Assembly: GCA_905221615.1 (NCBI GenBank)
Contig: CAJNDT010000003.1
Location: forward strand, 1-64,000
Origin: Symbiodinium sp. CCMP2592
Lineage: Eukaryota; Sar; Dinophyceae; Suessiales; Symbiodiniaceae
Direction of reading: 5' to 3'
DNA: 64,000 nucleotides
Position numbers and translations under genes: made by a program. This document shows positions 4,901 to 61,749 of the stretch, one piece after another. The notes beneath the pieces are model-generated. The model made no database searches. It was given only the letters and a program-made list of their open reading frames with translations, and was not told the DNA's origin. Position 1 is the stretch's first letter; every line of letters begins with the position of its first letter.

Positions 4901-6440
4901 GCTCGGGCCCGCAACTCCAGTTCAATGTACATTCCCAGCGCGTGGAAACCGTTGAACAGAGAAGCTTTGTGCTGAAGGTAATTGCTAGCTGCTCCAACGA
5001 ACCGTAAGTCGTGATTGATGTTGACAATTGGAGGGCGCGTGGTACGCTTCCCTGCCGCAATGATAGGGTCAACGTACGTGATCTTGAGCTGTCGCTGCAA
5101 GTCAGTGCGAATTGCTGCTCCGTCTCCAACCTCACTCATCGGAAAGGACATGTTCTCGATGAGGATCGCCTGGAGAGACAGATGGTAATGCAATGTGACG
5201 GTTGCAAGCTGCTCTTCAGTCAAGCCATCCAATGTCGCATTCACAGATTCCAACGATCCTTTTGTGACTTGGAAGTTGTAGTTGGCACCTGCGGTGATCG
5301 ACGGGCTCACAATGTAGACCTCGCTCCATCCATGCATGCCGAGGTTCTCTCTCACCGTGTGCGTTGATCCCCTGGTCCTTGCAACCATGTCAAAGTCTTG
5401 GACGAGGATTGTGCACTGAGAGCGCATAGTTGCGGCATCGGGTTTGCCACCCATGCCCAAACTATTGCGAAATCCATTCAGCGTGTTCATGGTGTTGATC
5501 CTTGCTTCTTCCGGAATTTCATCATTGTCGACAAGATCGGTGTCTGCCTCGATCATCACTGCCGAGGTAAGCATCGGAGGAGAAGGAAGATGCACGCATG
5601 ACACCAATGCCAATGCATGGTACAGCCGTGAATACATCCGTAACCACACCTTTGTACTCAGCTTCACGTAGACCTTCAGGTTGAGACCCTTGTCATCATT
5701 TTGAGAGACGGAACGGATCCTTGCCAAATAGGTCACCAGTCTTCTGACGTAATGCTGAATCGGTGTGGTCCCCACGTCGTGGTTGGCCACAAACTTTGGC
5801 GTCTCATCAATGGTAGGTGGGTACTCGTCTTGATCGCGGGTCGTCGTCAGCAAGATCGAGCGACAACCCTTCTCATCGATGTTGACATAATGGTACCAAC
5901 TTTCCTGAGCGCCAGCGGGGATTGGAGCTTCCTCCCATGTCGGTTGCGATGGTTCCTCTTCCGGTTGCGAAGTCGGTTGTTGTGGAGGAGGTGCCGCAGA
6001 AGATGACGACGCCGATGCCGTTGCCTCGTCCGTCCTTGCCCTCTTTGGTCCGTGGCTAGGGGTGGCTCGAGGTCCGGCAGCGGATCCTTGCGATTGTCCC
6101 GGCGTTCTTCCATGCTCAGGGTGCACGATTCCTTCCGGTTCGAGGTTGCTTGCCGTAGGCATCGCAACCCTCCCCGTTGAGTATACCCAGCTAGGATGCC
6201 GTTGAAGGTTGGGCGGAAATAGGCCATCATCTTGCATAAGCGGATTTGGTGCCCTCATCTGTTGGAATTCCGCTTCCCATATGCCCAATGTGGCGCGTTT
6301 GGTAGAGCAGTCGACCACGTACCCAGATTCAACTCCGCATTGATTCCAGGTGTAGCCACGGAACGCATCCGGCAATTGGAAAACCGTTCTTGTCCTGAGC
6401 TGCACATACTGCATCCACATGGTGTTTGAGGAAAGCATAC
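4890..6440 (-). CDS. Second segment of the polyprotein-like gene, unknown function
   Basis: This is the credible part of an open frame spanning 6549-4408. From about 6440 it reads as a folded protein (TRTVFQLPDAFRGYTWNQCG), then a Pro/Ser/Gln-rich linker with a basic PKRARTD stretch, then a long mixed helix/strand region ending near 4900. Below 4900 the frame turns into Arg/Ser-rich shadow translation while the neighbouring frame becomes protein-like, so the coding frame moves there. No family was recognised. It is in the same frame as the segment starting at 7470, separated from it by a TGA at 6619-6621 and by the short stretch in another frame. Confidence 0.5.
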
Positions 6441-6640
6441 GTGGTGTAGTCGGAATCAGGGAGCACGTCGTTAGACCATTTGTAATGCGGGAGTCCAGTT
6501 TGTGGATCGACCCATGATACGTAGGAATGAAGCACGTGGAGACAGACACTGAACGCCTGGAGTGAGTTCATCGCAAAGGCGAGCGGATGTCCCATGCCTT
6601 GAGGCAATGTGCGCATCATCAAAGCCAGCTGGTGACGTTG
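6400..6640 (-). CDS. Short frame-shifted bridge within the polyprotein-like gene
   Basis: Between the TGA at 6619-6621 and about 6420, sensible protein sequence continues in a different minus-strand frame (HQLALMMRTLPQGMGHPLAF, then SYVSWVDPQTGLPHYKW). It then returns to the original frame near the codons for FQLPDAFRGY. Two compensating one-base changes explain this most simply. An intron is unlikely because sequence is continuous in the alternative frame. Confidence 0.45.
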
Positions 6641-31200: not shown

Positions 31201-34200
31201 ACGGGATGTCACCGTTCACGAACAGAGATATTCTCTTGCCCTGCGGGTTGATCATGAATGGTTCCCTTCCGGGTGGCCACACAAACCCGTAGTTAAAGTT
31301 CATACATCTCTTGCCAATGGAAAGCACCGATGGTGTGTCGTCCAACACGTAAGCGTTGATCGGTTCCTCGAACGACTCAGTCTGGAAGTTCGACACGAGA
31401 TCGGTATCGGTGATTCCATTTGCTGTCTGAAATGATATGGGCTCTGGAGTCACGAGTGTCTCGAGACTATGCTTCTCGATCTTCTTCTGAGATATGAGGT
31501 CGTGGCCACACCCAGTGTCCATGAGAAACTTGATCTTCTTCTTGAGGATGACTGGTTGAACCATGCATTTGCATACACCTTGATTGATGATCCGCTTGCT
31601 GTGCGCAGCATCGAGTTCACGCTCAACGATGGAATCCTCACCGTCGTAGAAGGAGACTTCCTCCACCCGAGACGTTCCTGGGATTCGCACGAATGAAACT
31701 CGATCTCCACATTGATCATCATCGTCGTCAACCATGTCTCTCATAATCTGTGCCCTCAATCTCGCTTTGTGCTTGGCGAATTCCAAATTCACGGCGCGAT
31801 CCTCATCGTTAACAAGCGCTTCCATGTCGACGTACTTCACCTTCCGCTCTTTGTCCTTCTTCGATCTTCTAGGACACGAAGAAATGAACTTCACGTTATC
31901 GGCGAATGTCACATTACGCTTGATCCCTTTTCGGGTCGACGTAGTCGGTCCCGAGGATTCGTCGTCTGTTGAACAATCCGAATCAGCGTCGCTGTCAACG
32001 GATGGGCAATCTGACTCCTCCTCATCCTGTCTTGAAGATCGCTTCCATATCGCCGGAGCTGATGGATTCCACCTTCGGCACAATCTGATGGCGGGTGCCG
32101 CAGGGAGCGCCTTGGCCTTGGCATTCGGCTTCGCTGGAGCTGCCTTCGCTTCGGATTTGGCTTTAGCCTTTGCCTTTGGTTCCGGAGCTGGGGTAGCTGC
32201 TGCCTCATGCTTGAAAGGACAATTCTCTCTTGAGCACGAGCCTGTGTTCTTGAACGAGTAGCATATCCTGTTTCCTCCTCCTCCAGATGGACTCGGAGTT
32301 CTCGTCCTCGGCGTAAAGGGTCGCTCTGGAGTCTTCTTCGAGTGACTAAATGGGCACTTGTCACCATTTCGACACCCTGCATCTGTGAAATGGAACTTGC
32401 AGCGGATTTGCTTCTTGCTCTTGTCACCTCTGTTGTCCGCTGACTCACTCCTCGTCTTCTTCTTGGGTTTTGGCTTGGTTTTCGCATGACTCTTCGCTTT
32501 GCTTTGAGGTAGTACAGGTGTTGCTTTATCCGGCTTGGTCGGCGAAGCCTTGACCTTTGCGGATGGAGCTGCGTTAGGCGTTGGTTTCTCAGGTACCTTG
32601 GCCGGTGCAGCAAGCAAATCCTTGCCCTCAAGCATCTGGCGCAAGCCAATTTGGGTCTGAGTGAGATTTGATTGTTCTCGTCTCCGCATGATGGTACGGT
32701 CAATGATCTTCATCAAATTGTCGTACGATCGGTCTTCATGATTGTAGGGCAAGTGTTCGTAGTGCATGCCCAACTCCATCTTCATTGCGGGCGAGTCCTT
32801 GATCTTGCTGTACAAGCAATCACGGAGAGCTGTTTTGGATGGTATGTCTTCTGGCCTCATCCGTCCCAGAACTTCCAACCACGTCTGCTTGAACGTATGA
32901 AGCTTGTTGTCGCCTTGGTACTGGAGCTTCACCAGATACTCGAGAGTGATGATCATGTCGAGACGATCATGCGTTCGAAAGCTTTCATACATCATCGCAA
33001 TGATTTGTCGTCCTTTGATGATCTTCCCTTCGGGCCTGCTGATGTAATCGTTGGCCTTCCGGTTCACCTCCAAGTACAGGTCAGCAGATTTGTCACCACC
33101 AGCACGTAGCATTGCGACCATTGCGATCCCCAATTTGACGTCTACGCTCTTAAACTTCTTGTGTCCTGAATCGTTCAGTGCTTCGACATCAGGGAATGGG
33201 TTGAATGCTGGTGCCAGCCATAACATCCAGTCCTCATGATTTGGATCGGCTGATGCTCCTAAGACATTCGCCGTGCATACGGATCGCCAGTTGTTGAGGT
33301 GAGTGAGAGTAGGCCATGGAGGTACGGTCACTTTGTCGGCCTCCCTCCTGGAAATTCTCACTTCCGTGACTTCAGGATCTGCGTCTCCATCAGGATCACG
33401 CGCATGAGATCCAGGATCCGATTCAGGTTTGCCTCCACCGCTTTTCTTCTTATCATCATCATCATCAGGCGGGTCAGGAGGGTCATACCCCGTGCCGGTT
33501 CCTTCATCGTGCTCTCCATCTTCGTTCTCGTCGCCAGCCTCGTCACCGTCATCGTCTCCATTATCCTCCTGAATCGTTTCAGCGAATAACTTCCACTCAT
33601 CACGATCAGCTCTGAGACGTTGTTCGGCTTTCTGGGCCTTGAGTACTTCGCTTCGCAGATCGGCAATCTTCTCCTCGTACCGTTCCGCGACCTCTTTCTC
33701 GATCTGACGTCTCCTTGCTTCATGAATGGAATCGTCATAGGCAATAGGGGGACCGATGAGGTCGTTGCCCTTCGTAGATGCGGTGATACCGTCGACACCA
33801 ACAGGTCTTGAGGAGCTGGCAGATGCTGTGGACTTCGATCCCAACATCCCGCGATCCTCCAAGAGTTCGCGTAGCTGTCGATCACGCACGGCTGCCGCAT
33901 CACTTTTCCCATGAAATCCGCTTGGTATGCCGAACAAAGTGGCTGCACTAGGCGTGGAACGCGCAAGTGCTGGGCTGCTAATACCTGGCACGTAGTGCTC
34001 GGGCATTGCATCCGCCACGATTGGCATTGAACTGCGGCCAGTGAAGAAGTTTCCACCGGTGAATGGAATTCCATCCATCACAAGGTTCTTGTCCTTGTCC
34101 GATTCCGAGAATGCGAACTTCTCTTTGGCGACTGGACTAACTTGACTTGGGGACCGTATTTCAGGGGATCGTACCTCACCTCCTACGGAAAATGCAGGCA

Positions 34201-35653
34201 CTACTTCCTTTCCTACGTGCTCCCAGCCAGACTCAGTAGTCCTCGAAGACATGGGCATGCTTGAAGGCCGTGTCGCTCCTCCATAGTTGGAGTTCCGCGC
34301 TGCCTCCAATTCGCTGCGTGTCCTCGCTTGAAGATCTTCTTGTGCTTTGAGCGTTTTCCTGAGTTCACTCAGCTCGTCGTGCAAGGTAGGCAATGATCGC
34401 CTTGCATGATCTTCATTCTGATGAAGTCGGTCCTCTGCATCTTGCATCCTCTTCACAGCCATTTTGCGGTACTCTTCCTCTTCACCAAGACGTTCGCGAA
34501 GCCGAAATCGTTCTTGATCAATGGCTGCGCTGTTTCCAGCTAGCCCTTGGATCTCGTTCACGGCCCGCAACTCCTGGTTCTTGACCAAGTGGAATCGTTC
34601 CTGCATTGCTTGTAAGGCTTGTTCCGAACTTGCTGTGTTTGACCGGAGGACCAAGTTCTCTCTGGCATGTTCATGAAGTTCATGAGTCAGACGCTCATAC
34701 TCACGTGCCATAAGCTCACCATCGCCTTGCGCTCTTGCCTCCAACTGCACAAAGTTAGTGGCTGCCTCCGTGCGGAACACGTGTAGCTGTTGAGCTAACT
34801 CCTCGGCAACGGCATGTGCTTGACGTTGTTGAGCAGAGTTCTGTTCATCCATGCGAAACAAAGCTGTTTCATAGTCTCGCTTCATCTCCTGATTGACATT
34901 GTTGATGTGCCTCATGGCTAAGCATGCATGGTCACGTTGTCGTTCCAATTCTTCAATGCGAATCCCAGATCCTTCATCTTCTTGTTGCATCTCCTTGATC
35001 TTGTCCATCAGGGTCTGAACAACTCCTTCGTATTCTTGCATCTGACTGCGATAGTACATCTGCTGCGCAAGGTTAGATGCTTCGAGCTGTTGCGAAATCG
35101 TCAGTTCCTGATAGGCATTCGGACCATCGGCTATGGCTGGCGTGGTCACCGATGACGCATCACCACGTGCTGGGATAGTGTCCAGAGTCATATCCAGATC
35201 GTCAGCATCACGTGGTTGATTGGTAACCATCCGATTCCAAGTCATGGATTTGTCACGCCCACGAGTAGCCGAAGTCCTCGATCGTGCTGAAGAGCTTCTC
35301 GAAGATGATGGTCTTGACTTCTTTTCCAAGGTCTTCACTCCTTTGTCCTTGGCCCTGGACGTAGTCCGAGGTGCCTGAAAACCAGACGCTTCGGCTCGTC
35401 GTTCGGGAGCCTTGCCCGTCCTCGAACCTGTGGATGTCGGACGCGAAGGCGTAGATGCTCTTGGTAGACTCTTTGCTTTCACCTTGGGAACTGCCTTTGC
35501 AATGGCAAGCGCAGAAGATTGACCTTTGTCATCTTCCGTGGAGCTATCAACGGATTGCACCACTGTGTCATCAGCTGTTGACTCACCAACGGCTGGCGCT
35601 GCCACATCGGCACCGAAAGTCATTGTCGTATCTTGGCTTGATCCCGAGTTCAT
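25226..35653 (-). CDS. Intact Ty1/copia-type Gag-Pol polyprotein, 3475 codons
   Basis: A single open frame from the ATG at 35653 to the stop at 25226. Order by residue: disordered basic N-terminus; coiled-coil region about 185-440; gag-like helical region about 765-1005; two CCCH zinc fingers (C1085 and C1131 first Cys; C-x8-C-x5-C-x3-H and C-x8-C-x4-C-x3-H); retropepsin-like FLMDTGCG with D1379; integrase zinc-binding patch with CESC at 1627; integrase core D1656, D1720, E1751; reverse transcriptase with YVDD at 2466-2469; RNase H with FADADYAG (about 2692) and STPEAEIVAADF. A C-terminal extension of about 660 residues follows. The PR-IN-RT-RH order defines copia type. CCCH fingers instead of a CCHC knuckle are unusual. 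The absence of stops over 10.4 kb argues for recent activity. No LTR pair was found by eye within 0.5 kb of either end. Confidence 0.9.
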   Translation of the reverse strand: MNSGSSQDTTMTFGADVAAPAVGESTADDTVVQSVDSSTEDDKGQSSALAIAKAVPKVKAKSLPRASTPSRPTSTGSRTGKAPERRAEASGFQAPRTTSRAKDKGVKTLEKKSRPSSSRSSSARSRTSATRGRDKSMTWNRMVTNQPRDADDLDMTLDTIPARGDASSVTTPAIADGPNAYQELTISQQLEASNLAQQMYYRSQMQEYEGVVQTLMDKIKEMQQEDEGSGIRIEELERQRDHACLAMRHINNVNQEMKRDYETALFRMDEQNSAQQRQAHAVAEELAQQLHVFRTEAATNFVQLEARAQGDGELMAREYERLTHELHEHARENLVLRSNTASSEQALQAMQERFHLVKNQELRAVNEIQGLAGNSAAIDQERFRLRERLGEEEEYRKMAVKRMQDAEDRLHQNEDHARRSLPTLHDELSELRKTLKAQEDLQARTRSELEAARNSNYGGATRPSSMPMSSRTTESGWEHVGKEVVPAFSVGGEVRSPEIRSPSQVSPVAKEKFAFSESDKDKNLVMDGIPFTGGNFFTGRSSMPIVADAMPEHYVPGISSPALARSTPSAATLFGIPSGFHGKSDAAAVRDRQLRELLEDRGMLGSKSTASASSSRPVGVDGITASTKGNDLIGPPIAYDDSIHEARRRQIEKEVAERYEEKIADLRSEVLKAQKAEQRLRADRDEWKLFAETIQEDNGDDDGDEAGDENEDGEHDEGTGTGYDPPDPPDDDDDKKKSGGGKPESDPGSHARDPDGDADPEVTEVRISRREADKVTVPPWPTLTHLNNWRSVCTANVLGASADPNHEDWMLWLAPAFNPFPDVEALNDSGHKKFKSVDVKLGIAMVAMLRAGGDKSADLYLEVNRKANDYISRPEGKIIKGRQIIAMMYESFRTHDRLDMIITLEYLVKLQYQGDNKLHTFKQTWLEVLGRMRPEDIPSKTALRDCLYSKIKDSPAMKMELGMHYEHLPYNHEDRSYDNLMKIIDRTIMRRREQSNLTQTQIGLRQMLEGKDLLAAPAKVPEKPTPNAAPSAKVKASPTKPDKATPVLPQSKAKSHAKTKPKPKKKTRSESADNRGDKSKKQIRCKFHFTDAGCRNGDKCPFSHSKKTPERPFTPRTRTPSPSGGGGNRICYSFKNTGSCSRENCPFKHEAAATPAPEPKAKAKAKSEAKAAPAKPNAKAKALPAAPAIRLCRRWNPSAPAIWKRSSRQDEEESDCPSVDSDADSDCSTDDESSGPTTSTRKGIKRNVTFADNVKFISSCPRRSKKDKERKVKYVDMEALVNDEDRAVNLEFAKHKARLRAQIMRDMVDDDDDQCGDRVSFVRIPGTSRVEEVSFYDGEDSIVERELDAAHSKRIINQGVCKCMVQPVILKKKIKFLMDTGCGHDLISQKKIEKHSLETLVTPEPISFQTANGITDTDLVSNFQTESFEEPINAYVLDDTPSVLSIGKRCMNFNYGFVWPPGREPFMINPQGKRISLFVNGDIPYVRAGSSKSLVHDDPEAKAITEIFKGALTAGNVDVGVAAAAEAAPSEVEAEEEGDDHERPPDPEPQEPPIEEVPESEAGRPPDDDEGKGVGEIPLDGDDEVIIDVEGDGAPSRKARVGTLKAEAKTLAHLCTHRYRNPYCESCIRAKMKHLRTQRGAFQRVIKHWGDLVTFDFLDMRKAAEAGIGLDDGAREVLVIRDIATKMIAAIPTASRSTDEVVMAIRRLMGRRKIHMAYSDEAPEFDSAMAQLKIVIDHSLPGKPSNNSLAERSNQEVINTVAASMLHAGLPAQYWSFALNCVMQNLNIEDVEGDGDSAWKRMTGKDFEGKAIPFGAKVFFKPTDTRPKTYGNKFDPKGIPGIFAGYIITAGQGWSKKYRVWDMKEFANANLSMDASVPRKLMRPYETEVIYFPEEITFPLKAEYERMNSTIEGLRDNVDLAGKEIKDVDDGDDGPPGGNGGNGDDDDQDGLLPPPDPGEDPDLQDIDPSDIETEPSGEVFKSAEHEAIDAIGDKRLEELDEELGLRAAPPPSEPKVTGKDRRSPREVGPTGRLIPEGDIEEPGEIIKILKEKKLAPEEIEHWSTGKKGDGIVYLTDDGEACKIDKRGVPYKIRSDGRRTLPTRRPIHSYSPEAWKKMSEAEKKAAYKKEKRDKARVAKKDRKKAVIGKKIVTKILDNMIFPKIVPCEEIDLQLNVSIDDDDGWSWAQSYVDQYTQEQFLADVVPAVPAHMVMDDNWIPSMPCTTSHRNVHREKNQAGGSCFNAMVTRPVTRKEMVNNPKAMEAFMKEWKGLWDQEVFDFSTTREYDDVVAEAKKKGEKVHMARVHGLIYEKNYQLKEDDPARKFKGRGVLLGDQVKDQNMEAALFQDLGNSPATFDASRWADYYGCLPGNDVQMADAIQAYIQARLSGTPCWVELPDEAWHPSAKRHKFRRPVCRLIKALYGHPDAGTMWEQHCHTAVQKVGFKPIGDEWPSLYFHPQMKLLLVIYVDDLKMAGPKENLPKGWDMLRQELRLEEETPLGLYLGCRISKGEATLHDKTKVQTVTYDMETYLDMTVKKYCDVTGFDPTKFKTVPSPSPAEETKNHPARAPAQSGKSHRCTWCGHTMPVDKDGRLVPPPPIPKAPEEEEINEANRGALAPQAASILMKLLYAARICRFDLLRSINNLARKITKWTKKEDALLHHLMAYVHQSKHHMMIGWVGNSLEDSSIGLFADADYAGCGESLKSTSGAHLHIQGSHTRFPLAGLSKRQGCLSHSTPEAEIVAADFAMSRLGLPAITLWQQLGGQDPNFVFYDDNQTMIGVIRTGKNPTMRHLERTHGICIGWMHSIFQEGYVSLAYEVTAKMSADIHTKSFKDSVSWTHACQLINIFPPALIGSQEIMDLMRPTHTQSTDEKGQQHYSFKSEVPCFPYTQTPILPQVLYRAGLSSKEGLQEHDSVDPILVVKFPRMLRGPPSALPPGRYLRSTWILREGQWHQMEDRAAILDQPGKFDRYVERAVFQYHPVRGHLRPAAIADVLAPPFLPPPEPPLGQSYVRALPAKWRAVVVTLARAIHGGYQGFSLPLCFNGQSKSQASQFGYDQWSSVYEDVWHDAAEQKREYQGYDGAIVPHVVNFAENKPKEGLVIQFLDHDGGLVHTYKNPYSRWKYRITIKDAPKAVTVWTLVGVDEENWWNEYAPGKDCIAQHAPDSHYDPGLQVNVLSMGREVDDAMCAYLFDVVEARKINPNSVIFIGAGVLGKNSWLSRKIADNPEKAKLRTDYPWGEVVQRIARRAASWGFQIIIEVPPRVSVQETKQYKGLQEDVMWKSIKIQGCTHGQRYTFRDPVSPGTAVELGYCKDEWEYIAANVALHPKSSDVCSSKHLHMTDSDAKDRSDKCELTSQISRRLLKALKFQATGDGRLVAMPSKTGGRKPDRMIVDLCGLGNGYAVPKSTKGCARITCKELIGSKADEDNLIGAMKNACRNDLRTPVLFVASLLRSGAGPGSSEGACVGGEKRSGGKY
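25640..26135 (-). other. C-terminal accessory module of the 25-35 kb element
   Basis: Within the extension after RNase H, the pattern NPNSVIFIGAGVLGKNSW, then GFQIIIEVPPRV, then a GC-T/A-x-G turn (IQGCTHGQRY), then Cys and His residues (CSSKHLHM) follows the same order as the block at 56.60-57.19 kb of the other element. It suggests an alpha/beta fold with an E-x-P-like loop. Function is unknown; an enzyme such as a nuclease or methyltransferase-like protein is possible but not shown. Confidence 0.4.
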
Positions 35654-35969
35654 TGTGGTCGTAGTAGATCAAGTAGTCGTTGCTGTAGAAAGGCAGAGCC
35701 GCGTACGGCTGATAACCTGCGTGGGGGATTGATCTCGACTAGGTTGCTGCTCTCCCCACCAGAGCTGTAATGAATGTAGGTGTGGCTGGCTTGCACTCTC
35801 CACAGACTGGACCCTGTCTCTCTTACACTTCCACGTGTGCAATCCTATGCAGGCAGAACCGGCGGCCGTTCCTTTTGCACTCACTGCCGGCGGCGGTTCG
35901 TCTGTGCAACGGGATAGCTCTGATTGCTCAGGATAGAAGACACTTATAGCACTTAGCTATGGGCATTGA

Positions 35970-52194: not shown

Positions 52195-52653
52195 GCTCCG
52201 ACCATCAAGATTACAAATCAACACTAGCCTAGCACAAGATCGTGTGCATAAACCAGTGCATAGGCAAATCTGTATGTGTACGAATATAACATCAGATATA
52301 GCACCCCCGACCGCACAGGTGCATGATTGCAAGGATGCCTGTTGTGTGACATGTCTTTGTATCCTGAATTCTACTGATCGCAGCGTTACAGTTTGCTCAA
52401 GGTAACGTGCTTGGCAATGACAGCGAAAGGGGAATTGCAACCCCCGAATAAAGGCACTAAACCATGTGGAGTACAAAAAACATAATGAAAAATCAGGCGC
52501 CCTGGTGGAAAACGGTGATTGTAGCTACACCGGCTTGTATCTTAAGCCCGAAACCCTGACCCCAAACTCCAAAACCCTAGACCCCAAACCCGAAACCCCA
52601 AACCCTAAACCCCTAAATCCCAAACCCCCCCAAAACCCAAAACCCGGGAAGAC

Positions 52654-52724
52654 CCCCAGGATCCAGAGAGCTTCTGCCAGGCCCCCGGACGCCAGGGCAG
52701 CTTCCACTGGTCAAAGTAAATCCA
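52654..52724 (-). CDS. Candidate micro-exon
   Basis: 71 bp between GGCAG/ and /GTCTTC. It reads WIYFDQWKLPWRPGAWQKLS then GSW. Trp-rich and clearly protein-like. It lies next to telomere-like CCCTAAA sequence and upstream of the LTR element. Confidence 0.45.
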
Positions 52725-53087
52725 CTGCCTGCAGCTTCGCCGGGCACTGTTGTAGTAGGACCAGTAGGAAGAGGAGGAAGGAGGAGGAGGAGGAGGAGCG
52801 GGAGGGAGGAGGGAGGAGGAGGAGTGGGAATAGGAGTAGCGGTAGTAGTAGGAGGTACGTAGTAGTAGGTAGTAGCAGTAGTGGAGCAGCAAGCTTCGAA
52901 CCCAGACCCTGAAAAATGCAATGGCCAACCCGTTTAAGTATTTGGCCTAGGCTGACTTGATCCGCGCACCTGAAGACCCAAAACCCTTAACCATTAACTT
53001 CAAACCCTAAACCCCAAACCCGACACTTTCAGATCCTAAACCCGACTTGACGCCTGCTGGACTACAAAACCCTGCACAGTGACCCTA

Positions 53088-53092
53088 AACCC
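53088..53092. repeat. Target-site duplication, left (AACCC)
   Basis: AACCC directly before the 5' LTR equals AACCC at 61744-61748 directly after the 3' LTR. The empty site reads as a telomere-like CCCTAAACCCTA. Confidence 0.9.
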
Positions 53093-53287
53093 TGCCAGTG
53101 AAATCCTGGTGCTGCTCCTCTCATTCATGAATGACTGGACACGCAGCATTCTGATCAAGGAAAAGAGCCGATTGACGTCCATAGATTGTGCTGTTCGCCG
53201 CGCCATACGGACACTGTCTCTCAGCGAACTCCTAAAGCAGTCAGCTTGTGTGCGACCGGCTACCACCCAACTACGTTGCTGCCTGCA
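53093..53287 (+). repeat. 5' LTR, 195 bp (TG...CA)
   Basis: Starts TGCCAGTGAAATCCTGGTGC and ends CGTTGCTGCCTGCA. Base-for-base the same as 61549-61743 on visual comparison. Confidence 0.97.
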
Positions 53288-53300
53288 TGGTAGCGGAGCC
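53288..53300 (+). promoter_or_regulatory. Primer-binding site, initiator-Met tRNA type
   Basis: TGGTAGCGGAGCC begins immediately after the LTR. It is complementary to a tRNA 3' end GGCTCCGCTACCA; eukaryotic initiator-Met tRNAs end in GCUACCA. Confidence 0.8.
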
Positions 53301-53364
53301 CGTGAAGGGCTCGTGAGCATTCGATCCAGGGACCAGTCTGCCAAGCGTTCGCCCTTGGCAGAAG

Positions 53365-55269
53365 ATGGCGGCAAGCGGAGGCTTGGGCAACCGTAACAAA
53401 GACGGCGTGCCCATCTGGGATGGTGAAGCGGCAAGCTTCAACGATTTTGAGGAGGCATGCTTGATGTATGAGCAGTCAGTGGCCAGAGAGAAGAGGTACC
53501 TGACAGGTCCCAAGATACTGGCAGAGCTGACTGGCTCAGCGAGACGACTAGTGGCGGGCAAGAGCGCCACCTGGCTCTCGTATAGCGGAGGAGTACAGAC
53601 CCTGCTCGGACATCTGCGATCATGTTTGGGGCGACCGCAGATTTCGGAGCTTAGTGACTACCTCAACCGCTACTTCAAGCATAGCAAGAGACGCCAGCAA
53701 GAGTCTATCAACGACTACGTGACCCGGAAGTGCGAGATCTACCTAAGAGCACAACAAGCACTTCGGCGTGTAGCACCCTTCCAGCAACCTTCGAAGACTC
53801 CGAAGGAAAGTGCTACCTCATGGCCTCGAGCTTGGACCGGTTCCCGAAGAAACAGCTATGATTCCCAAGGTGAGCCAAGGACAACTGAGGCCCGGACAGA
53901 AGTTCAAAGCGCGGCACCTGTGGTGGGGAACACTACTGCGGCGCCTGATGAGGAGGCAGACGAACCGGAGGACCAAGCCGAGACCTGGGGCTGGGAATCT
54001 TACCAGCCTACTACGAGAAGCTGGAGCGAGGGATGGTCTGGACAGAGCTACTACTACGGCTCCTGGGGCTCATGGAACCCCTGGAGTAGTGGCAGTTCCT
54101 GGAGTGCTTATGACTGGCACTCCAGCCGGTCCGAGCCTGTGGAGGAAGTGATGCCAGAACTTCTTCCCGACTACGTCCAAGGATGGTATCTTCTTCAAGA
54201 TGCAGGACTCACAACGCAAGAGAAGAATGTGGTGCAGACGGCGCTGCAAGGAGACTTCAGTCCCCAACGTGTGGCTCAGGAACTGAGGAACCAATGGTCG
54301 GGCAATGAGCTACTTCGTCGAGAACCTGCCGGACGCCAAGGAGGCTACTTGGGGGAGTACCGGGACGATGAGGAGGATGAGGAAGGCGAGGACCAGGAGA
54401 ACGTGGACGTGACCTTCGAGGACCTGAACCCCGAGGACCAGGAGCTTTGGACCGAGGCCGAAGGTGACGTACAAGGAGCCATGGCGGCGATGCACCAAGC
54501 ACGTCGCACCCTGCGAGACGCACGTGCCCGCCAGACCAGTGTGAGATTGTCACGCCAGTACTACAATCCAGGTCGGAAAGGTGCTGGTCGCGGGAAGCAA
54601 TCTCATGGCAGCCGCGATGACTCAGGAATGACCTGTTTGCGATGTGGAAAAGAAGGCCACCGAGCGGCTAACTGTCCACATCCACCTGTCTCCCAGGCAA
54701 ACGCCAAGCCGGAAGCGACTTCATCCTTCATTTGCTTCAATGATGTTGCGGTGGAGGCCTACGCTATGGAAGTCACGACCACGGCCGACGCGGTGAAACT
54801 GGGAAAAGCAGTTGTGGATGGTGGGGCCACAAGGACTCTGGCCTCGATCGCGGCTATGGAAGCGATTATGAAGATCAACAAGCAAAAGCATGGCGACACC
54901 CGGCTCGCCGAGTTAGACATGGAAGAGAGGCCAGTGTTTGGGTTCGGCAATGGATCCGAGAACCGCTGTGCCTCCACGGCTCAGCTGGCGATTCAGGCAA
55001 ATCAACAACCAGGACGCCTACGCGTACACTGCCTTGATCACGGAGATGGCCCACTGTTGCTCTCAGTCGACTCTCTGAGGAACTTAGGAGCCATCATAGA
55101 TTTTGAACATGATTTGATTTGTTTTAGGAAGCTGGATCCGACACGGCTGGTGAAAGTCGAGCGCTCGGCTACCGGTCACCAGCTGCTAGACATGACCGAA
55201 GACTGGTACAGGGATTCAGTCGGCACTCAGCAAGCAGTGCCCAGCCTAGCCGATTTCGTCGAGGGCTAG
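53365..55269 (+). CDS. Gag-protease of the young copia element
   Basis: 634 codons from ATG at 53365 to TAG at 55267-55269. Residues 1-200 are a helical gag region (NDFEEACLMYEQSVAREKRY and following). A Trp/Tyr/Ser-rich stretch (about 205-255) and an acidic region follow. The CCHC knuckle is C424-L-R-C427-GKEG-H432-RAAN-C437. Next is the retropepsin-like motif VVDGGATRTLAS with the predicted catalytic D485. So protease is encoded in the gag frame. The stop is in the same frame as pol, which is open from the next codon. Confidence 0.9.
   Translation: MAASGGLGNRNKDGVPIWDGEAASFNDFEEACLMYEQSVAREKRYLTGPKILAELTGSARRLVAGKSATWLSYSGGVQTLLGHLRSCLGRPQISELSDYLNRYFKHSKRRQQESINDYVTRKCEIYLRAQQALRRVAPFQQPSKTPKESATSWPRAWTGSRRNSYDSQGEPRTTEARTEVQSAAPVVGNTTAAPDEEADEPEDQAETWGWESYQPTTRSWSEGWSGQSYYYGSWGSWNPWSSGSSWSAYDWHSSRSEPVEEVMPELLPDYVQGWYLLQDAGLTTQEKNVVQTALQGDFSPQRVAQELRNQWSGNELLRREPAGRQGGYLGEYRDDEEDEEGEDQENVDVTFEDLNPEDQELWTEAEGDVQGAMAAMHQARRTLRDARARQTSVRLSRQYYNPGRKGAGRGKQSHGSRDDSGMTCLRCGKEGHRAANCPHPPVSQANAKPEATSSFICFNDVAVEAYAMEVTTTADAVKLGKAVVDGGATRTLASIAAMEAIMKINKQKHGDTRLAELDMEERPVFGFGNGSENRCASTAQLAIQANQQPGRLRVHCLDHGDGPLLLSVDSLRNLGAIIDFEHDLICFRKLDPTRLVKVERSATGHQLLDMTEDWYRDSVGTQQAVPSLADFVEG
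55267..55269 (+). promoter_or_regulatory. In-frame TAG between gag-protease and pol
   Basis: The frame after TAG is open without interruption to 61530 (first codons GGA CAG CTC). Pol could be made by stop readthrough or by reinitiation at ATG 55306. Confidence 0.6.
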
Positions 55270-55305
55270 GGACAGCTCCTCCATCTCTCCCGTCCCGTGG
55301 GGAAA

Positions 55306-58300
55306 ATGGAGGTCAATAGTGCAACGGGACCTGTCGGCAGTTTGCAAGTGGAAGCTGCTGATGTAATTCATGCAGAGATCAGGAACCAAGGGAATAAGAG
55401 TAGGAAACCTAGGGGTAAAGTTTCTTTCGCTTCTCCCTGTGAGAGTGCCTGTTGCGGTGCAAACTCTGATGCTTCGTCCAGGAACGCATGTGTCAGTACT
55501 GTGAGAGGCCATTCAGCTTCAAGCAGTTCCTTGCCCCGCTCGTCCTGTCCAACTTCTGGACCACCAGCGCGCCATGTACAAGATGACAAAGGCCCAGCTG
55601 ACCGAGGAGCTCTACAAGTACGGAGAACATCCGGCCAAGTCATGGACCAAGGTGGAGATCCGTGCCAGGCTGCTCGAACTACAGGGCCGAGATGTGGAAC
55701 AGACGCAGCGCGAGATGAACTCGACAACGCTCGAGATGATGACGAGGGAAATGCGGAAATCGACCAAAACCAAGAGCATGCTGGTCACCTACTGCACCAA
55801 CGAGCTGGAGATGGAGTTGACTGGCAACGAGACGAAGCCGCAACTGGAGATGAAGGCCATGAAGGTGATCCTCCAGAAAGCCCCGGCCGAGGCTCGCGAC
55901 ATTGTGGGGTTCGGCCGTCACGGGGAGATGCGCTACATCGACATCCAGACGGACTACAAGGAGTATGCCAGGTGGGTGATGCAGACGGCCCGCGAGGGGC
56001 CGAACGACTGCGATCCCCGTCTTCGTCGTCTTGCGACGTGGTTGGAGACGCATCCACCAACCGCCGGAGGCCAGGACCAACAGGCCCTGACAACATGGAG
56101 AGAGCCCCCAACAGCAAAGGGCTACAGCTCCCGTCGACCCTCGAGTACGGCAGCTCCACCGGCTCCCAAAGGAATGGCTCGTCCTACCGGACCCCTCTTG
56201 ATCGAGAAGAACCAGGCCGCCGAGTCCAGCACGTCCTCTCCCGAGGTGATTGCCGATGCGGACAAGAAGTTGGCGGACCAGGCCAAGAAGATGGAAGAGA
56301 TGGCAGCGATGTTGGCACAGATGCAGGAGGAGATGAATGCGATGAAGTCGGAGCCGCCGCGGAAGCAGGCGATCCAATCCGACGACGACAGCATGACCGA
56401 CCGCTCCTTCGTGGCGATCAAAGCCCGTTCTCCAAGGACCGGGGACTGAGTGTTGCCAGTGAGCCTAGCGAACCAAGTTCTAGCCAGGACCGGCCCTCCG
56501 GTAAGAGTGTTCCCTTAGGTGAACATAAGGCTCGCAATCTGGATGAGGCTGCTAGTAGAGTTGTTCCGGAGATCTTCCAGGCCCTGGCGGGATATGATCG
56601 GCCTGTTTTGATGGAGTGTGGCGACCATTCCAACAGCAATCTTGCTCAGAGGATTTGCGAACTGACCAAAAACCCTGAAGCTGCTGTTGTTTGCGGTAAA
56701 TGGAACGGATGCGACTTAGGGACCAGTGAAGGCCTCAAGCTCCAACTGAGTAGGATCAGGCTCGAAAGACCCCAACATGTGTGGATCAACCCGGCGTGTA
56801 AAGGTTACTGTCCCTATCAAAACATGAACATGAAGGACCCCCAACAAAAGGCCCAAATCCTCAAGCAGCGGGAAGAAGATGTGCGAACCCTGGTAGGTGC
56901 TGCCTGTGTGATTGCCTTATGTATACAGAGCGGTGTTCATGTTACGGTGGAACTGTCTGAGCGCAATCAAGCTTGGCGGTTACCTGTGTGCCAGCAGTTT
57001 GCCACGAAGTACAACATGTTGTCTGCAGTCACCAAGGGATGCGCTGTCAACCTGAGAGACGTTCATGAGCATAAGCTAGTTCAAAAGGGATGGCGAATCA
57101 TGACAACCAACAAGCGCCTGGCTCAAGACATGTCGTTACCATGTAGATGTGACAAACAGTACAAACATGGTAATTGCCAAGGAAGGACGCTGATAGGACC
57201 AAGCAAGTACACCACCGAGTATGTCGCCCGAGCGGTACGAGCAGTCACCCAGGAGTTGTCCCATCAAGGGGCATTACAGGAGTGCGCAGGGATGTCGCAG
57301 CTTTTAGAGGGCTTTGGAGAAGGAGAGTTCTGTACATGTGGAGAGGCGACAGGTATGAGGATTCCAGTTGCGTGCGCGAGTTGCCTTCGGGGAAGAGTTG
57401 AGATGGGTTCAGAGAGCACGACGGAAACCGGTGCAGAGGCTTCAGGGCTTGAAGGATTCGGAAACGAGTTGGAAGACCCTCAGGAGGCCCTTGTGTGTAG
57501 TTCCGAGGCAACAAGAAGCCTTGAGTCCCAGGCCCAGGCTCTCCTCCAGAACACCAACTTCCAGCACGAAGCTTGTAGACAACTCCTGAAGCAGCTCCCC
57601 TTCAAGCCTTCCAAGCAACACCGAGGCCCCATTCGCGAAACCAAGCCACGCTACATTGCTTTCGGACTGTATTCCCACGGAAACCATTATGGCGTCACAA
57701 AACACAGCCAAGCCTTTCCCAGGGTTTGTAGGTATGTGTTGCGCTATCTTCAACATTGGAGCCCTGAAGTTGTGCATTGTACTTCTTTTGTCGTCAACGA
57801 TAATTGTCACTTAGAGCTTCACAAGGATGTGCACAACCTTCCCGAAAGCCCCAACTATGTAGTAGGACTCGGAAACTACCAAGAAGGTGAGTTGTGGGTG
57901 GAACATTCAGAAGGGGACGCTTCTGAGGGAATTTCCAGTAAGCGACTTCTGAAGGGACATTGGGTTCAGGGCCAAAAGTTGGATGTGTTTCAGAAGATTC
58001 AGAAGTTTTCCGGTAGGAAGTGGCATGGTACTCAGAATTGGAAAGGCGATAGGTTGACGGTGAGTGCCTACAGTAGCAGGGGTTGGATACAGGTTGATGA
58101 AGGCCTCAAAGAGCACCTCCGAAGCTTAGGATTTCCAGGCCCTCCACCGGAGACTGTTCAGTCAGCGCATGTGCTTCGTAGCGGCAAAGCATGGAATGGG
58201 CCCCTCAAGGCCCAGAACAACAAGCAAGATGAAGCCATCAAGAAAAAGCTGTACCTTCTTCATGCTGCAACTGGACATGGAAGCATTCGACACATGGTAG

Positions 58301-61300
58301 AGGCTCTGAAGCGTAGGAACGCGAGTCCCAAGGTCCTTGAGCTTGCAAAGTCCTTTAGATGTACCGTGTGTGATGAGAAGCGGAAAGTGCAACCTCGACA
58401 AGTGGCTTCATTGGAGCCGCTTCCCCCAAAGTTTCATACTTTGACGTGCGATATAGGGCATTGGCATCATCCTACCTCAGGAGAACAACAGAACTTTATG
58501 GTGATTGTGGATGAGGGATCCCGATTCAAGATGGCTAAGATCCTCACCAAAGGTAAAGCTCAAGCGCCCAACGCCGTTACCTGCCTGAATTTCCTCAATG
58601 AAGGATGGATCCAGACTTTCGGACGACCAAAGACGTTGAGGCTCGATCCAGCAGGAAGTTTTCGGGCGCAAGCTGTAGAAGGGTTTTGTGATCGCCATAG
58701 CATCTACTTAGACATCATTCCTGGAGAAGCACATTGGCAGATTGGAGTGGCTGAGCAAGCCATCCAGGGAATCAAACAACTGATGTCAAAGATGAGCCAG
58801 ACAGACAAAGATCTGGGACCAGAGGAGCTCTTGAGTATCGCTGTGTCGGTGTTCAATCAAAGAGAAATGGTCCGTGGATTCTCTCCTACGCAACATATTC
58901 TGGGACACAGCCCCGATGTTACAGGGAGCCATGTGAATGTTTTGCAAGCTGTGGCACCCGAACCGGTGCTCAATCGTCCCCTGGAGGATTTTGCAAGGGA
59001 AGCCCGATTGCGCGCGGAAGCAGAAAAGGGCCTGGCAGAATGGATGGCAGAGCAGCGCATTCAGAGGGCTCTGCATTCTCGAGCACGACCTACACAGGCA
59101 TACCAGCCCGGCGATCTAGTGTATTTCTGGAGGACACAAGAGTCCAACAAGAGCAAGAAACATCCTGGAACCAACCAAGGACGGTTCCTTGGCCCGGCTC
59201 GTGTGCTGGCCATGGAGTCTCGAGCAGATGAGGCAGGACACAGTCGCGCAGGTCATGCCATCTGGTGTGTTCGCGGAAGGAGCCTCATTAAGTGCAGCCC
59301 GGAGCAACTGCGGCCAGCAAGCCAGAGGGAGGAGCTGGTAGAGGCACTGACGGAGCACCAGCAAACTCCGTGGACTTTTACGCGTCTGGCGGAAGAAGTC
59401 GGCGGAAACCAGTATGAAGATATCAGCGCAGAGATCCCCACCACCGAGGAGTGGCGGAGGGCACAAGATCCTGAACAAGAGGTCCAACCGACCCGGCGCC
59501 GATTGTCGACCAAGCGTCCCGCGGCCGCACTGCATCCAGAGGACCAAGAGATGGAGCCAGCTGAGGCCACCGGCTCCAGCCAACCCAGCAATGTGCGACG
59601 AGTGGGTCAAGCAGAACCCGACTGGGACCTACATGTCAACACGCAATACTGGTGGGAGAAGGTTCCCCAGTCAGCCTGGATAGCTGAACACACCAGTTTC
59701 TGGACCGACGAGAGTGCCGCGGTGGAAGTGGAAATCCCACTCCCAGAGAGCCGGCGAGGCTTGGAACAAGCCTCTCGCGACCTACACGGCTACTTTGTTG
59801 GGGCCTTCAAGCGGAAGGCCATTGAGGTGAGCGAGCGCCGCTTATCTCCCGAAGATCGGGAAAAGTTCCAAGGAGCCAAGAGCATTGAGGTGAAGAACTT
59901 TATAGCGGCCAAAGCATTTGAAGCCTTACCAGAAGGAGTGAGGCCCAACAAAGAACAGGCAGTGGGTATGCGGTGGATTCTCACATGGAAAATGAAAGAA
60001 GACGGGAGCCTTAAACCTAAGGCACGAGCCGTGCTACTTGGATACCAAGACCCTGGATATGAACATCGTGCAACTACGGCTCCAGTCATGACTCGTCAGA
60101 CCAGACAGCTAATGTTGCAACTCTGTGCTAACAAAGGTTGGCGGCTGCGAAAAGGCGATGTGAGTGGAGCATTCCTTCAAGGCCGCGAATATCCTTCTGA
60201 GCTCTACTGTCTCCCTTGCGACGAGATCTGCGAGGCCATGGGACTGCCCACGGGCTCAATCACTAGGTTGCGGCGTGCGTGCTATGGTTTAGTTGATGCA
60301 CCTCTTGAATGGTACAAGACAGTCGCCGAGTTCTTGGAGAGCATAGGATTTGAACGCTTGTGGTCTGATTCGTGCGCTTGGATGTGGCGAAAAGATGGCC
60401 AGGTTCGAGGCATGATCTCTGGACATGTTGATGATTTCATGTTCGGTGGTGATGATGAAGATGCTGAATGGCAGGCGATGCTGAAGAAGATCCAAGAACG
60501 GTTTAAATGGGGAGATTGGGATCAGGATTCCTTTGTCCAATGTGGGGTTCAAGTGGAGGCCTGTGAGCAGGGTTTTCGGCTTTCCCAACCCAAATACGTG
60601 GATAACATTGACATGATACATGTGAGCTCGTCACGAAAGAAGGCCCGGAAAGCCCCCACTACGGATCATGAGAAAACCAAATTAAGAGCACTTCTTGGAG
60701 GACTGAGCTGGCACGCGCAACAAGTTGCCCCACACGTTTCGGCCTCCGTTGGACTGTTGCTCTCTGAGGTCAATCAGTCCACAGTGGACACGTTGGTGAA
60801 AGCCAATCTCTTACTCGAGCAGGTGAAGCAGCGCAAGGATCATGCTATGCTAATCACTAGACAGTCTTCTGAGATGCACTTCTTCGCGTGGGTGGATGCT
60901 TCGGATAGGAACCGCATTGATGGGGGAAGCACCCAGGGAATCTTCATAGGAGCCTCCACCGGTGACCTCATGAAAGGAGAGGTCTGTCCTATAAGCCCCA
61001 TATCGTGGCACTCTACACGCATCGACAGGTCCTGCCGTAGCCCAGGTGCAGCTGAGACAGCTGCCGCCGTGAATGGAGAAGACGCCTTGTACTACATCCG
61101 CTACCAGTGGAGCGAAATGATGTACGGTCAGGTAGATCTACGACAACCTGATCAAGTAGTTGGTCGCGTACCAGGATGTGTCGTGACCGACTCCAGGAAC
61201 GTATACGACAAGCTCAACACAGCCACCCTGAGCATCAATGGAGCAGAGAAACGATCCAACATCGAGCTCTTGAGCCTCAAGGAGTCCCAAGGATCCACCG

Positions 61301-61530
61301 GTGTTGCCATCAGATGGGTACACTCAGAAGCCCAGCTCGCCAATGCACTCACCAAAACAGGCGAGCACAAAGAACTGGAGCTTTACTATCGCATGCAGCA
61401 CCAGTGGCGCATAGTGGAGGACGAGAACATGCGTTCAGCCCGGAAGCGCAAGTCAGAAGGACTTGCACCTCTTCAGGACTCTAGGGAGGAGTTAAAGAAA
61501 GAAGTTGAAACCGTTCCTGATCTCTTCTAG
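55306..61530 (+). CDS. Pol: accessory domains, integrase, reverse transcriptase, RNase H
   Basis: Open from 55270; first ATG is 55306. Numbering below counts from the codon at 55297. Residues about 90-385 look like shadow translation of the overlapping SAP frame. Residues 434-631: accessory module (VWINPACKGY, VTVELSERNQAW, KGCAVNLRD, KGWRIMTT, CRCD...HGNCQG). Residues 784-931: dioxygenase-like domain with H842-x-D844, H910 and R919. Integrase: His pair LHAATGH (about 987), CTVC, then D1052, D1117 and E1153 (D-x64-D-x35-E). Reverse transcriptase from about 1557, KGDVSGAFLQG and HVDD with D1712-D1713. RNase H: FAWVDASD, GAAETAAAVNGED, VTDSRNV. No internal stop. Confidence 0.92.
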   Translation: MEVNSATGPVGSLQVEAADVIHAEIRNQGNKSRKPRGKVSFASPCESACCGANSDASSRNACVSTVRGHSASSSSLPRSSCPTSGPPARHVQDDKGPADRGALQVRRTSGQVMDQGGDPCQAARTTGPRCGTDAARDELDNARDDDEGNAEIDQNQEHAGHLLHQRAGDGVDWQRDEAATGDEGHEGDPPESPGRGSRHCGVRPSRGDALHRHPDGLQGVCQVGDADGPRGAERLRSPSSSSCDVVGDASTNRRRPGPTGPDNMERAPNSKGLQLPSTLEYGSSTGSQRNGSSYRTPLDREEPGRRVQHVLSRGDCRCGQEVGGPGQEDGRDGSDVGTDAGGDECDEVGAAAEAGDPIRRRQHDRPLLRGDQSPFSKDRGLSVASEPSEPSSSQDRPSGKSVPLGEHKARNLDEAASRVVPEIFQALAGYDRPVLMECGDHSNSNLAQRICELTKNPEAAVVCGKWNGCDLGTSEGLKLQLSRIRLERPQHVWINPACKGYCPYQNMNMKDPQQKAQILKQREEDVRTLVGAACVIALCIQSGVHVTVELSERNQAWRLPVCQQFATKYNMLSAVTKGCAVNLRDVHEHKLVQKGWRIMTTNKRLAQDMSLPCRCDKQYKHGNCQGRTLIGPSKYTTEYVARAVRAVTQELSHQGALQECAGMSQLLEGFGEGEFCTCGEATGMRIPVACASCLRGRVEMGSESTTETGAEASGLEGFGNELEDPQEALVCSSEATRSLESQAQALLQNTNFQHEACRQLLKQLPFKPSKQHRGPIRETKPRYIAFGLYSHGNHYGVTKHSQAFPRVCRYVLRYLQHWSPEVVHCTSFVVNDNCHLELHKDVHNLPESPNYVVGLGNYQEGELWVEHSEGDASEGISSKRLLKGHWVQGQKLDVFQKIQKFSGRKWHGTQNWKGDRLTVSAYSSRGWIQVDEGLKEHLRSLGFPGPPPETVQSAHVLRSGKAWNGPLKAQNNKQDEAIKKKLYLLHAATGHGSIRHMVEALKRRNASPKVLELAKSFRCTVCDEKRKVQPRQVASLEPLPPKFHTLTCDIGHWHHPTSGEQQNFMVIVDEGSRFKMAKILTKGKAQAPNAVTCLNFLNEGWIQTFGRPKTLRLDPAGSFRAQAVEGFCDRHSIYLDIIPGEAHWQIGVAEQAIQGIKQLMSKMSQTDKDLGPEELLSIAVSVFNQREMVRGFSPTQHILGHSPDVTGSHVNVLQAVAPEPVLNRPLEDFAREARLRAEAEKGLAEWMAEQRIQRALHSRARPTQAYQPGDLVYFWRTQESNKSKKHPGTNQGRFLGPARVLAMESRADEAGHSRAGHAIWCVRGRSLIKCSPEQLRPASQREELVEALTEHQQTPWTFTRLAEEVGGNQYEDISAEIPTTEEWRRAQDPEQEVQPTRRRLSTKRPAAALHPEDQEMEPAEATGSSQPSNVRRVGQAEPDWDLHVNTQYWWEKVPQSAWIAEHTSFWTDESAAVEVEIPLPESRRGLEQASRDLHGYFVGAFKRKAIEVSERRLSPEDREKFQGAKSIEVKNFIAAKAFEALPEGVRPNKEQAVGMRWILTWKMKEDGSLKPKARAVLLGYQDPGYEHRATTAPVMTRQTRQLMLQLCANKGWRLRKGDVSGAFLQGREYPSELYCLPCDEICEAMGLPTGSITRLRRACYGLVDAPLEWYKTVAEFLESIGFERLWSDSCAWMWRKDGQVRGMISGHVDDFMFGGDDEDAEWQAMLKKIQERFKWGDWDQDSFVQCGVQVEACEQGFRLSQPKYVDNIDMIHVSSSRKKARKAPTTDHEKTKLRALLGGLSWHAQQVAPHVSASVGLLLSEVNQSTVDTLVKANLLLEQVKQRKDHAMLITRQSSEMHFFAWVDASDRNRIDGGSTQGIFIGASTGDLMKGEVCPISPISWHSTRIDRSCRSPGAAETAAAVNGEDALYYIRYQWSEMMYGQVDLRQPDQVVGRVPGCVVTDSRNVYDKLNTATLSINGAEKRSNIELLSLKESQGSTGVAIRWVHSEAQLANALTKTGEHKELELYYRMQHQWRIVEDENMRSARKRKSEGLAPLQDSREELKKEVETVPDLF
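55574..56449 (+). CDS. Overprinted frame: SAP-domain protein, 291 codons
   Basis: In the +1 frame relative to pol, from ATG 55574 to TGA 56447-56449. Residues 5-38 fit a SAP DNA-binding motif (AQLTEELYKYG, then KVEIRARLLEL). A second SAP-like helix pair is near 69-104. Residues 112-137 read GFGRHGEMRYIDI...YKEYARWV, a pattern common to a small domain of the form FGKH-G-x-Y. Residues about 228-258 form a Met/Glu/Lys coiled coil (KKMEEMAAMLAQMQEEM). The pol frame in the same interval is Arg/Gly/Asp-rich and domain-free. This frame therefore looks like the real protein here. How it is expressed (internal start or frameshift) is unknown. Confidence 0.75.
   Translation: MYKMTKAQLTEELYKYGEHPAKSWTKVEIRARLLELQGRDVEQTQREMNSTTLEMMTREMRKSTKTKSMLVTYCTNELEMELTGNETKPQLEMKAMKVILQKAPAEARDIVGFGRHGEMRYIDIQTDYKEYARWVMQTAREGPNDCDPRLRRLATWLETHPPTAGGQDQQALTTWREPPTAKGYSSRRPSSTAAPPAPKGMARPTGPLLIEKNQAAESSTSSPEVIADADKKLADQAKKMEEMAAMLAQMQEEMNAMKSEPPRKQAIQSDDDSMTDRSFVAIKARSPRTGD
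56599..57190 (+). other. Accessory module in pol, shared with the 25-35 kb element
   Basis: Motifs in order: HVWINPACKGYCPYQNMN, a helix (QILKQREEDVRTLVGAACVI), GVHVTVELSERNQAW, TKGCAVNLRD, KGWRIMTT, and CRC...HGNCQG. See 25640-26135 for the likely relative. Probable alpha/beta fold; function unknown. Confidence 0.45.
57649..58090 (+). other. Predicted 2OG-Fe(II) dioxygenase-like domain within pol
   Basis: HLELHKDVHN (H842, D844), NYVVGLGNYQEGELWVE, then FSGRKWHGTQNWKGDRLTV with H910 and R919. The order H-x-D, about 65 residues, H, then R about 9 residues later is the metal and 2-oxoglutarate pattern of double-stranded beta-helix dioxygenases. The HxD-x-x-N and E-G-E-L-W pattern is closest, by eye, to the TET/JBP-like group. 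Motif-level evidence only. Confidence 0.55.
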
Positions 61531-61532
61531 TT

Positions 61533-61548
61533 GCGGGGGAGGGGGGCA
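61533..61548 (+). promoter_or_regulatory. Polypurine tract
   Basis: GCGGGGGAGGGGGGCA lies directly before the 3' LTR, as expected for plus-strand priming. Confidence 0.85.
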
Positions 61549-61743
61549 TGCCAGTGAAATCCTGGTGCTGCTCCTCTCATTCATGAATGACTGGACACGC
61601 AGCATTCTGATCAAGGAAAAGAGCCGATTGACGTCCATAGATTGTGCTGTTCGCCGCGCCATACGGACACTGTCTCTCAGCGAACTCCTAAAGCAGTCAG
61701 CTTGTGTGCGACCGGCTACCACCCAACTACGTTGCTGCCTGCA
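61549..61743 (+). repeat. 3' LTR, 195 bp
   Basis: Identical to 53093-53287 by eye; followed by the target duplication AACCC at 61744-61748. Confidence 0.97.
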
Positions 61744-61749
61744 AACCCT

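Follow-up and report, generated by a model that had tools for sequence, protein, structure and literature searches.

An LTR element with two overlapping reading frames

The window, by which we mean the whole stretch of 64,000 nucleotides analysed here, contains at 53093-61743 a complete-looking LTR retrotransposon. The LTRs have TG...CA ends, the target duplication is short, and the integrase (a weak match) precedes a reverse transcriptase of the RVT_2 type (a strong match), identifying the element as Ty1/copia-type. The element is young, and its host is probably a Symbiodinium. Its features are as follows.

53088-53092 and 61744-61748: target duplication AACCC, 5 bp, read from the sequence
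53093-53287, plus strand: 5' LTR, 195 nt, TG...CA ends, a direct repeat 100% identical to the 3' LTR
53365-55269, plus strand: gag-protease ORF, 634 aa, with its ATG at 53365 in a frame-1 ORF of 53317-55269 that ends in UAG
55270-61530, plus strand: pol frame after the UAG, 2086 codons in the same frame as gag-protease, with the stop TAG at 61528-61530; in order, a linker, a conserved domain without a Pfam match, integrase, reverse transcriptase and an RNase H region (by eye)
55270-56448, plus strand: pol-frame linker, stop-free, about 390 codons of nearly neutral sequence
55574-56449, plus strand: overprinted +1 ORF, ATG-started, 291 aa (stop to stop 55505-56449), inside the frame-1 pol ORF
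61549-61743, plus strand: 3' LTR, 195 nt, with a purine-rich tract immediately upstream

The first-pass annotation had described two same-strand frames as open across 55574-56449, and these coordinates are right, the +1 ORF lying inside the frame-1 ORF of 55270-61530. Pfam placed a CCHC zinc knuckle in gag (zf-CCHC, 21.1 bits against a cut-off of 20.8), and a protease motif, VVDGGA, was identified by eye in the gag-protease ORF. RVT_2 matched pol residues 1559-1780 (83 bits, 3.2e-23; Pfam). The rve-like match at pol residues 1057-1145 was weak, 15.6 bits against a cut-off of 32.6; rve matched 6 of 13 related pol proteins, the best at 1.1e-05. Between the overlap and the integrase, at 56450-58240 of the window, about 600 residues of pol are conserved and rich in cysteine but gave no significant Pfam or PDB sequence match. 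Motifs such as PPCGPYS, seen in relatives, and an H-x-D...H pattern are loosely reminiscent of a methyltransferase and a dioxygenase.

AAACCCT-like repeats adjoin the element (52540-53090), and the target duplication AACCC fits them. Elsewhere in the window, at 25226-35668 of the minus strand, one uninterrupted frame of 3480 codons represents a second, different copia-type element, in which gag and pol share one frame with matches to a CCCH zinc finger, an aspartyl protease, a retroviral SH3-like domain and RVT_2, some of them below their cut-offs. The same strand has long open frames at 2492-4921 and 4408-6567 (809 and 719 codons, overlapping by 514 nt), neither with a Pfam match at E<=0.01.

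The 1.1-Gb genome of the window holds 126 places that match the +1 protein. We read 50 of them, namely 30 loci from the search, the window copy among them, and 20 that were fetched. A non-redundant set of 23 loci, again including the window copy, was defined by requiring identity below 85% across 120 nt counted from the TAG. Database homologues of the +1 protein numbered seven (E 1.3e-134 to 1.7e-31), five of them 271-297 aa long.

Stop avoidance and selection in the two frames

Pol-frame stop codons were compared with the numbers expected from synonymous shuffles that keep each ORF's own codons. The window copy, with 314 codons scored, had 0 stops against a mean of 10.2 expected, and 0 of 2000 shuffles reached 0. 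In the 23 non-redundant loci, two stops (in L033 and L034) were observed against 160.8 expected, the lowest of 2000 simulations being 124. The third frame of the same loci contained 281 stops against 296.1 expected and showed no such depletion. The first-pass annotation had judged the openness too long for chance even in GC-rich sequence, and these counts bear it out. A second frame that merely happens to be open in GC-rich coding sequence would be in keeping with the GC3 of the +1 ORF (0.78) and with an antisense frame that is open there for 261 codons, but the depletion of stops in the pol frame, not comparably seen in the third, makes the chance of this practically negligible. Very recent copies of one sequence are excluded as well, because the 21 other aligned loci are 27-65% identical to the window +1 protein.

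The avoidance of stops was visible in codon choice. In the ATG-started ORF of the window, a T-ending codon stood before 0 of 82 codons starting with AA, AG or GA and before 28 of 208 other codons; the 23 loci together gave 2/1920 and 580/4406. The window's gag (26/171 before AA, AG or GA) and its pol after the overlap (93/451) showed only a mild bias of this kind.

Locus by locus, 49 of the 50 had no pol-frame stop across the matched +1 region, where the third frame has 5-18 stops, and 47 had none as far as the end of the +1 ORF, the exceptions being L030, L033 and L034. The +1 ORF of L030 is broken and the merged frame stays open. L033 and L034 each contain a single pol-frame stop, that of L034 lying near the end; in L033 the post-TAG peptide and the +1 ORF share a frame, and in L040 the +1 ORF is truncated. 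Homologues with either frame broken, which the first-pass annotation had named as evidence against it, were within the overlap limited to these four single copies among 50. Pol is broken downstream of the overlap in some further copies, e.g. L009, L011, L042 and L048. The few disturbed copies fit decay of individual insertions, not a pattern of the family. In L030 and L033 the +1 and pol frames have been merged, apparently by indels, and the long frame is still open; P0054 and P0070 resemble frame-disturbed copies elsewhere.

We also examined a wider set of 67 pol ORFs, from which 16 with long N-terminal extensions were picked and 15 tested against the +1 family profile, asking which +1 residues each pol ORF's residues permit (12 shuffles each). 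The profile was matched by 14 of the 15, with scores of 132-323 against a shuffle maximum of 58; because the extensions had been picked for length, these matches show that the overlap exists there and give no estimate of how often the pol frame is open. For reference, the window scored 556, the wrong frame at most 62, and two negative pol segments 39 and 40. The remaining extension, P0075, scored 66, about the wrong-frame level.

As the first-pass annotation had proposed, we measured selection separately in the two frames, using 19 close-copy pairs with 355 differences (some loci used twice, transitions weighted 2). In the +1 frame, 149 non-synonymous differences were observed against 246 expected and 206 synonymous against 79.3, giving an omega of about 0.23. 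By comparison, the protease gave an omega of 0.12, pol downstream of the overlap one of 0.15, and the linker upstream of the overlap one of 0.76. The same pairs created 0 pol-frame stops against 15.6 expected. With the +1 class fixed, differences that replace a pol-frame residue were no rarer than silent ones (observed/expected NN 0.59 and NS 0.64; SN 2.61 and SS 2.27), and divergence at four-fold sites, taken from distant pairs, was about the same in the +1 ORF as elsewhere. Purifying selection on amino acids was thus found in the +1 frame, the pol frame being approximately neutral apart from stops. Pol-frame identity exceeded the shuffle mean by a small margin (z averaged about 0.8 and was positive in 14 of 19 pairs, which share loci), so that the pol-frame amino acids across the overlap may be weakly constrained.

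Taken together, these results demonstrate that both frames are maintained across diverged homologues and that sequence conservation is confined to the +1 protein; in the pol frame, selection acts essentially only against stop codons. The need to keep pol open that the first-pass annotation had postulated therefore holds for a stop-free path, and does not extend to a pol segment clearly conserved as protein. Over the overlap the pol frame is in the main a stop-free linker rather than a conserved domain.

The UAG codon and the pseudoknot downstream

The gag-protease ORF and pol share one frame, separated by a single UAG. The features around this codon, all on the plus strand, are as follows.

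55267-55269: UAG separating gag-protease from pol, with GGACAG after it; putative site of readthrough
55270-55277: 8-nt spacer from the UAG to stem 1, from the alignment
55278-55284 with 55306-55312: stem 1, from covariation, also predicted by RNAalifold alone
55287-55290 with 55299-55302: inner helix, from covariation, also predicted by RNAalifold alone
55292-55298 (apical loop) with 55324-55330: pseudoknot stem 2, from covariation

Every one of the 50 loci has a single TAGGG[AG]CA close to where the +1 region starts, and in 46 the pol frame is bounded by the TAG of this sequence; in L013, L030, L033 and L042 another stop is nearer or the frames are shifted. The pattern for the protease motif matched in 36 loci, 33 of which have the motif in the pol frame (14 loci gave no pattern match).

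Aligned over 80 nt counted from the TAG, the 23 loci need a single gap of three columns, ahead of the second stem, besides gaps at the trailing end. Three helices make up an H-type pseudoknot in this alignment, namely a stem of 7 bp pairing columns 12-18 with 40-46, an inner helix, and a stem 2 in which columns 26-32, the apical loop, pair downstream with 61-67. With the structure drawn by eye from the same sequences on which covariation was scored, 91.8% of 414 cells pair, against 37-55% with slid partners, and 14 of 18 pairs have changed on both sides, for a covariation score of 0.578 against at most 0.199. Stem 2 alone has 93.2% of its cells paired and 6 of 7 pairs changed on both sides (score 0.634, slid at most 0.173). 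Across all 50 loci, at least 6 of 7 pairs of stem 1 form in 48, and at least 5 of 7 pairs of stem 2 form in 50 when two registers are allowed, as against 12% at random places. RNAalifold, which cannot predict pseudoknots, independently gives the same hairpin. A single-sequence energy fold of 55255-55335 (81 nt), a method that cannot show pseudoknots, was no better than shuffles (z 0.01).

Run over the 64 kb of the window, a model built from these copies gave a single strong hit, which is the copy used in training (68.9 bits), besides a weak match (11.4 bits, E 0.55). Genome-wide, a 16-nt TAG signal, its pattern drawn from loci among those it then matched, gave 95 matches against 2 for the reversed pattern, and 77 of the 95 sit 229-1000 nt upstream of a +1 homologue. 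The TAA/TGA form of the signal gave 60 matches (8 reversed) and none within 5 kb of the 126 +1 places. Fifty of these are one repeated 16-mer, TAAGGACAACTCCTTC, which recurs at 50 places genome-wide, none within 5 kb of a +1 homologue, and may be the mark of a different repeat family whose TAA sits in comparable surroundings.

An in-frame UAG between gag and pol, followed by an 8-nt spacer and a pseudoknot, is the arrangement of the murine leukaemia virus (MuLV) type. Since the UAG and spacer are conserved and the pseudoknot covaries, the alignment points to MuLV-like readthrough as the route by which pol would be made. The UAG could instead simply be a sense codon in the host or the element, as the open frame that follows it in frame in 46 of 50 loci would allow. 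We consider this extremely unlikely. Pol itself terminates in TAG at 61528-61530, the +1 ORF ends in TAG in L007, L008, L012, L022, L038 and L043 among the 22 loci listed, the window's gag and pol contain no other in-frame TAG, and a sense codon would need no pseudoknot.

Pol could also be started independently, downstream of the UAG, from an internal AUG or a separate mRNA and without readthrough. In some loci, e.g. L028 and L029, the pol frame does contain an AUG close to where the +1 ORF ends, and a minor junction promoter is described for Tca2 in the account given by PMC2194720. However, the window, L005, L010, L024, L043 and L046 have no AUG in the pol frame shortly before the +1 ORF ends or in at least the 50 codons that follow it; in the window copy there is none between codons 275 and 447. 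An independent start would require neither a stop-free linker nor a pseudoknot, and we regard it as very unlikely. Readthrough of the UAG has a counter-argument of its own, from the similar junction of Tca2, which gave no readthrough in S. cerevisiae; the study, as far as its account in PMC2194720 goes, also found no evidence for the pseudoknot and did not assay the element's own host.

The +1 protein, its expression and related systems

The +1 protein contains the motifs GFGRHG..Y and RLRRLATWL and a C-terminal coiled coil, so that the FGRHG...Y motif and the coiled coil named in the first-pass annotation are present. The SAP domain named with them did not find support in Pfam. The window protein had no match to SAP (PF02037), and the best member of the +1 family reached 13.1 bits against a cut-off of 23.9, which sets the family apart in sequence from the SAP/LEM/Rho-N helix-extended-helix domains. 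The SAP model matched 4 of 27 family members at E<=1 (best 0.079), and an unrelated model, BRK, also matched 4 of 27 (best 0.021). The predicted structure of the +1 protein suggests two helix-extended-helix units, which align to folds that we take to be SAP-like. The SAP label would thus be a weak one, drawn from low, unspecific sequence scores and a predicted fold.

We then considered how the +1 protein is expressed. Its ATG, picked by hand from an alignment motif in 22 loci, is found 244-337 nt downstream of the TAG; 20 of the 22 have a purine at -3, and 20 have C at -1. The stretch before this ATG has the following position in the window.

55524-55573, plus strand: stretch before the +1 ATG, a possible splice acceptor region by analogy with the 22-locus average

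In the 22 loci, the 40 nt before the +1 ATG are richer in pyrimidines (0.54-0.64 against 0.44), and the best AG site scores 10.6, where random windows give 8.75 and a stretch of linker gives 9.4. These signals fit a splice acceptor, used in cis or by a spliced leader. Reinitiation after the UAG is another possible route; other AUGs lie between the UAG and the +1 ATG in 21 of the 22 loci. In the window, a TGA in the +1 frame (55502-55504) rules out a direct frameshift from gag into the +1 ORF.

Splicing might also account for the whole locus, if introns joined gag-protease to the +1 frame and then to pol, giving a gag-SAP-pol polyprotein, and the pol frame of the overlap were never read. Four public gene models of the same genome, P0025, P0053, P0062 and P0078 (loci L027, L013, L008 and L009), are built in this way, and the high-scoring AG sites before the +1 ATG would suit it. 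The intron donors, however, differ from model to model, and some of the introns cut away stretches of pol that elsewhere are both open and conserved. Such splicing would leave the avoidance of pol-frame stops unexplained, and likewise the conserved UAG and pseudoknot, both of which the introns would remove. We therefore take the four models as prediction artefacts and splicing of this kind as unlikely, though it is the main rival. The models carry the names RE1 or GIP, and their removal of the UAG and pseudoknot as introns hides the arrangement.

What very probably explains the data jointly is a pol made by readthrough with the aid of the pseudoknot, across a stop-free linker that houses a separate +1 protein translated from its own AUG. 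Ribosomes would read through the UAG at the end of gag-protease, aided by the 8-nt spacer and the pseudoknot, cross about 390 linker codons and then reach the conserved pol domains, and the +1 protein of 291 residues would be made from its own AUG inside the linker. It would come either from an mRNA of its own, produced with a spliced leader or by cis-splicing to an acceptor just upstream, or by reinitiation. We infer that readthrough occurs at some rate and that the +1 protein would bind nucleic acid. The core of what the first-pass annotation had suggested, a readthrough or continuous pol combined with an internally started or frameshifted protein, agrees with the conserved UAG, the covarying pseudoknot and the two open frames; its frameshift option, as a direct shift from gag, fails in the window.

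A fuller reading, to which we give about equal weight for and against as a whole, is that a dinoflagellate copia lineage uses the readthrough linker as the home of an overprinted accessory gene with its own mRNA. The gene would encode a tandem SAP/HeH-type nucleic-acid-binding coiled-coil protein, which might anchor the particle or the integration complex on the chromatin of dinoflagellates, itself unusual. If this is true, translation traffic holds the second frame open while the protein of the first frame evolves.

Pseudoknot-aided stop-codon readthrough and overlapping-frame genes are both known in retroelements and viruses, and Tca2 of Candida albicans is a Ty1/copia-type element. At the gag-pol junction of Moloney murine leukaemia virus, a UAG is followed by a purine-rich spacer and a pseudoknot, with readthrough of about 5%, in the accounts of PMC2194720 and PMC5009743. 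The element described here resembles these accounts in its in-frame UAG, short spacer and pseudoknot just downstream, and in a pol that is proposed to arise by readthrough. It differs in that host and retroelement are unrelated to those of the virus, the protease precedes the UAG, a long linker with an overprinted gene follows it, and readthrough here is a prediction from sequence. Tca2, as described in PMC2194720, likewise has an in-frame gag stop, an 8-nt spacer and a putative pseudoknot, but its stop is UGA rather than UAG, and that description mentions no overprinted ORF. Sireviruses, including SIRE1, are likewise LTR elements with in-frame stops or with covariant stems at recoding sites, and SIRE1 appears in a list of elements whose in-frame stop falls between gag and pol or between pol and env (accounts in PMC5009743 and PMC2194720). 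They are plant elements, however, the sirevirus sets described have pol in the +1 frame, and the descriptions in the two sources include no SAP-like ORF within pol. For the Symbiodinium copia elements of PMC5890265, the account given there describes no readthrough, overlap or SAP-like protein.

In titles and abstract openings of the open-access literature, we found no large conserved overprinted gene in the readthrough linker of a copia element. Relative to the literature searched, an overprinted gene in this linker, with its host frame kept essentially only stop-free, was not found described. It looks like a natural experiment in dual coding, in which over about 250-310 codons in each of 23 diverged loci one frame is constrained in sequence and the other essentially only in its avoidance of stops. 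The junction adds a covariation-supported candidate readthrough pseudoknot in a copia-type element of a dinoflagellate, the earlier candidate, Tca2, being without support for its pseudoknot in the account of PMC2194720. The UAG-pseudoknot site also offers a ready test site for stop-codon readthrough in dinoflagellates.
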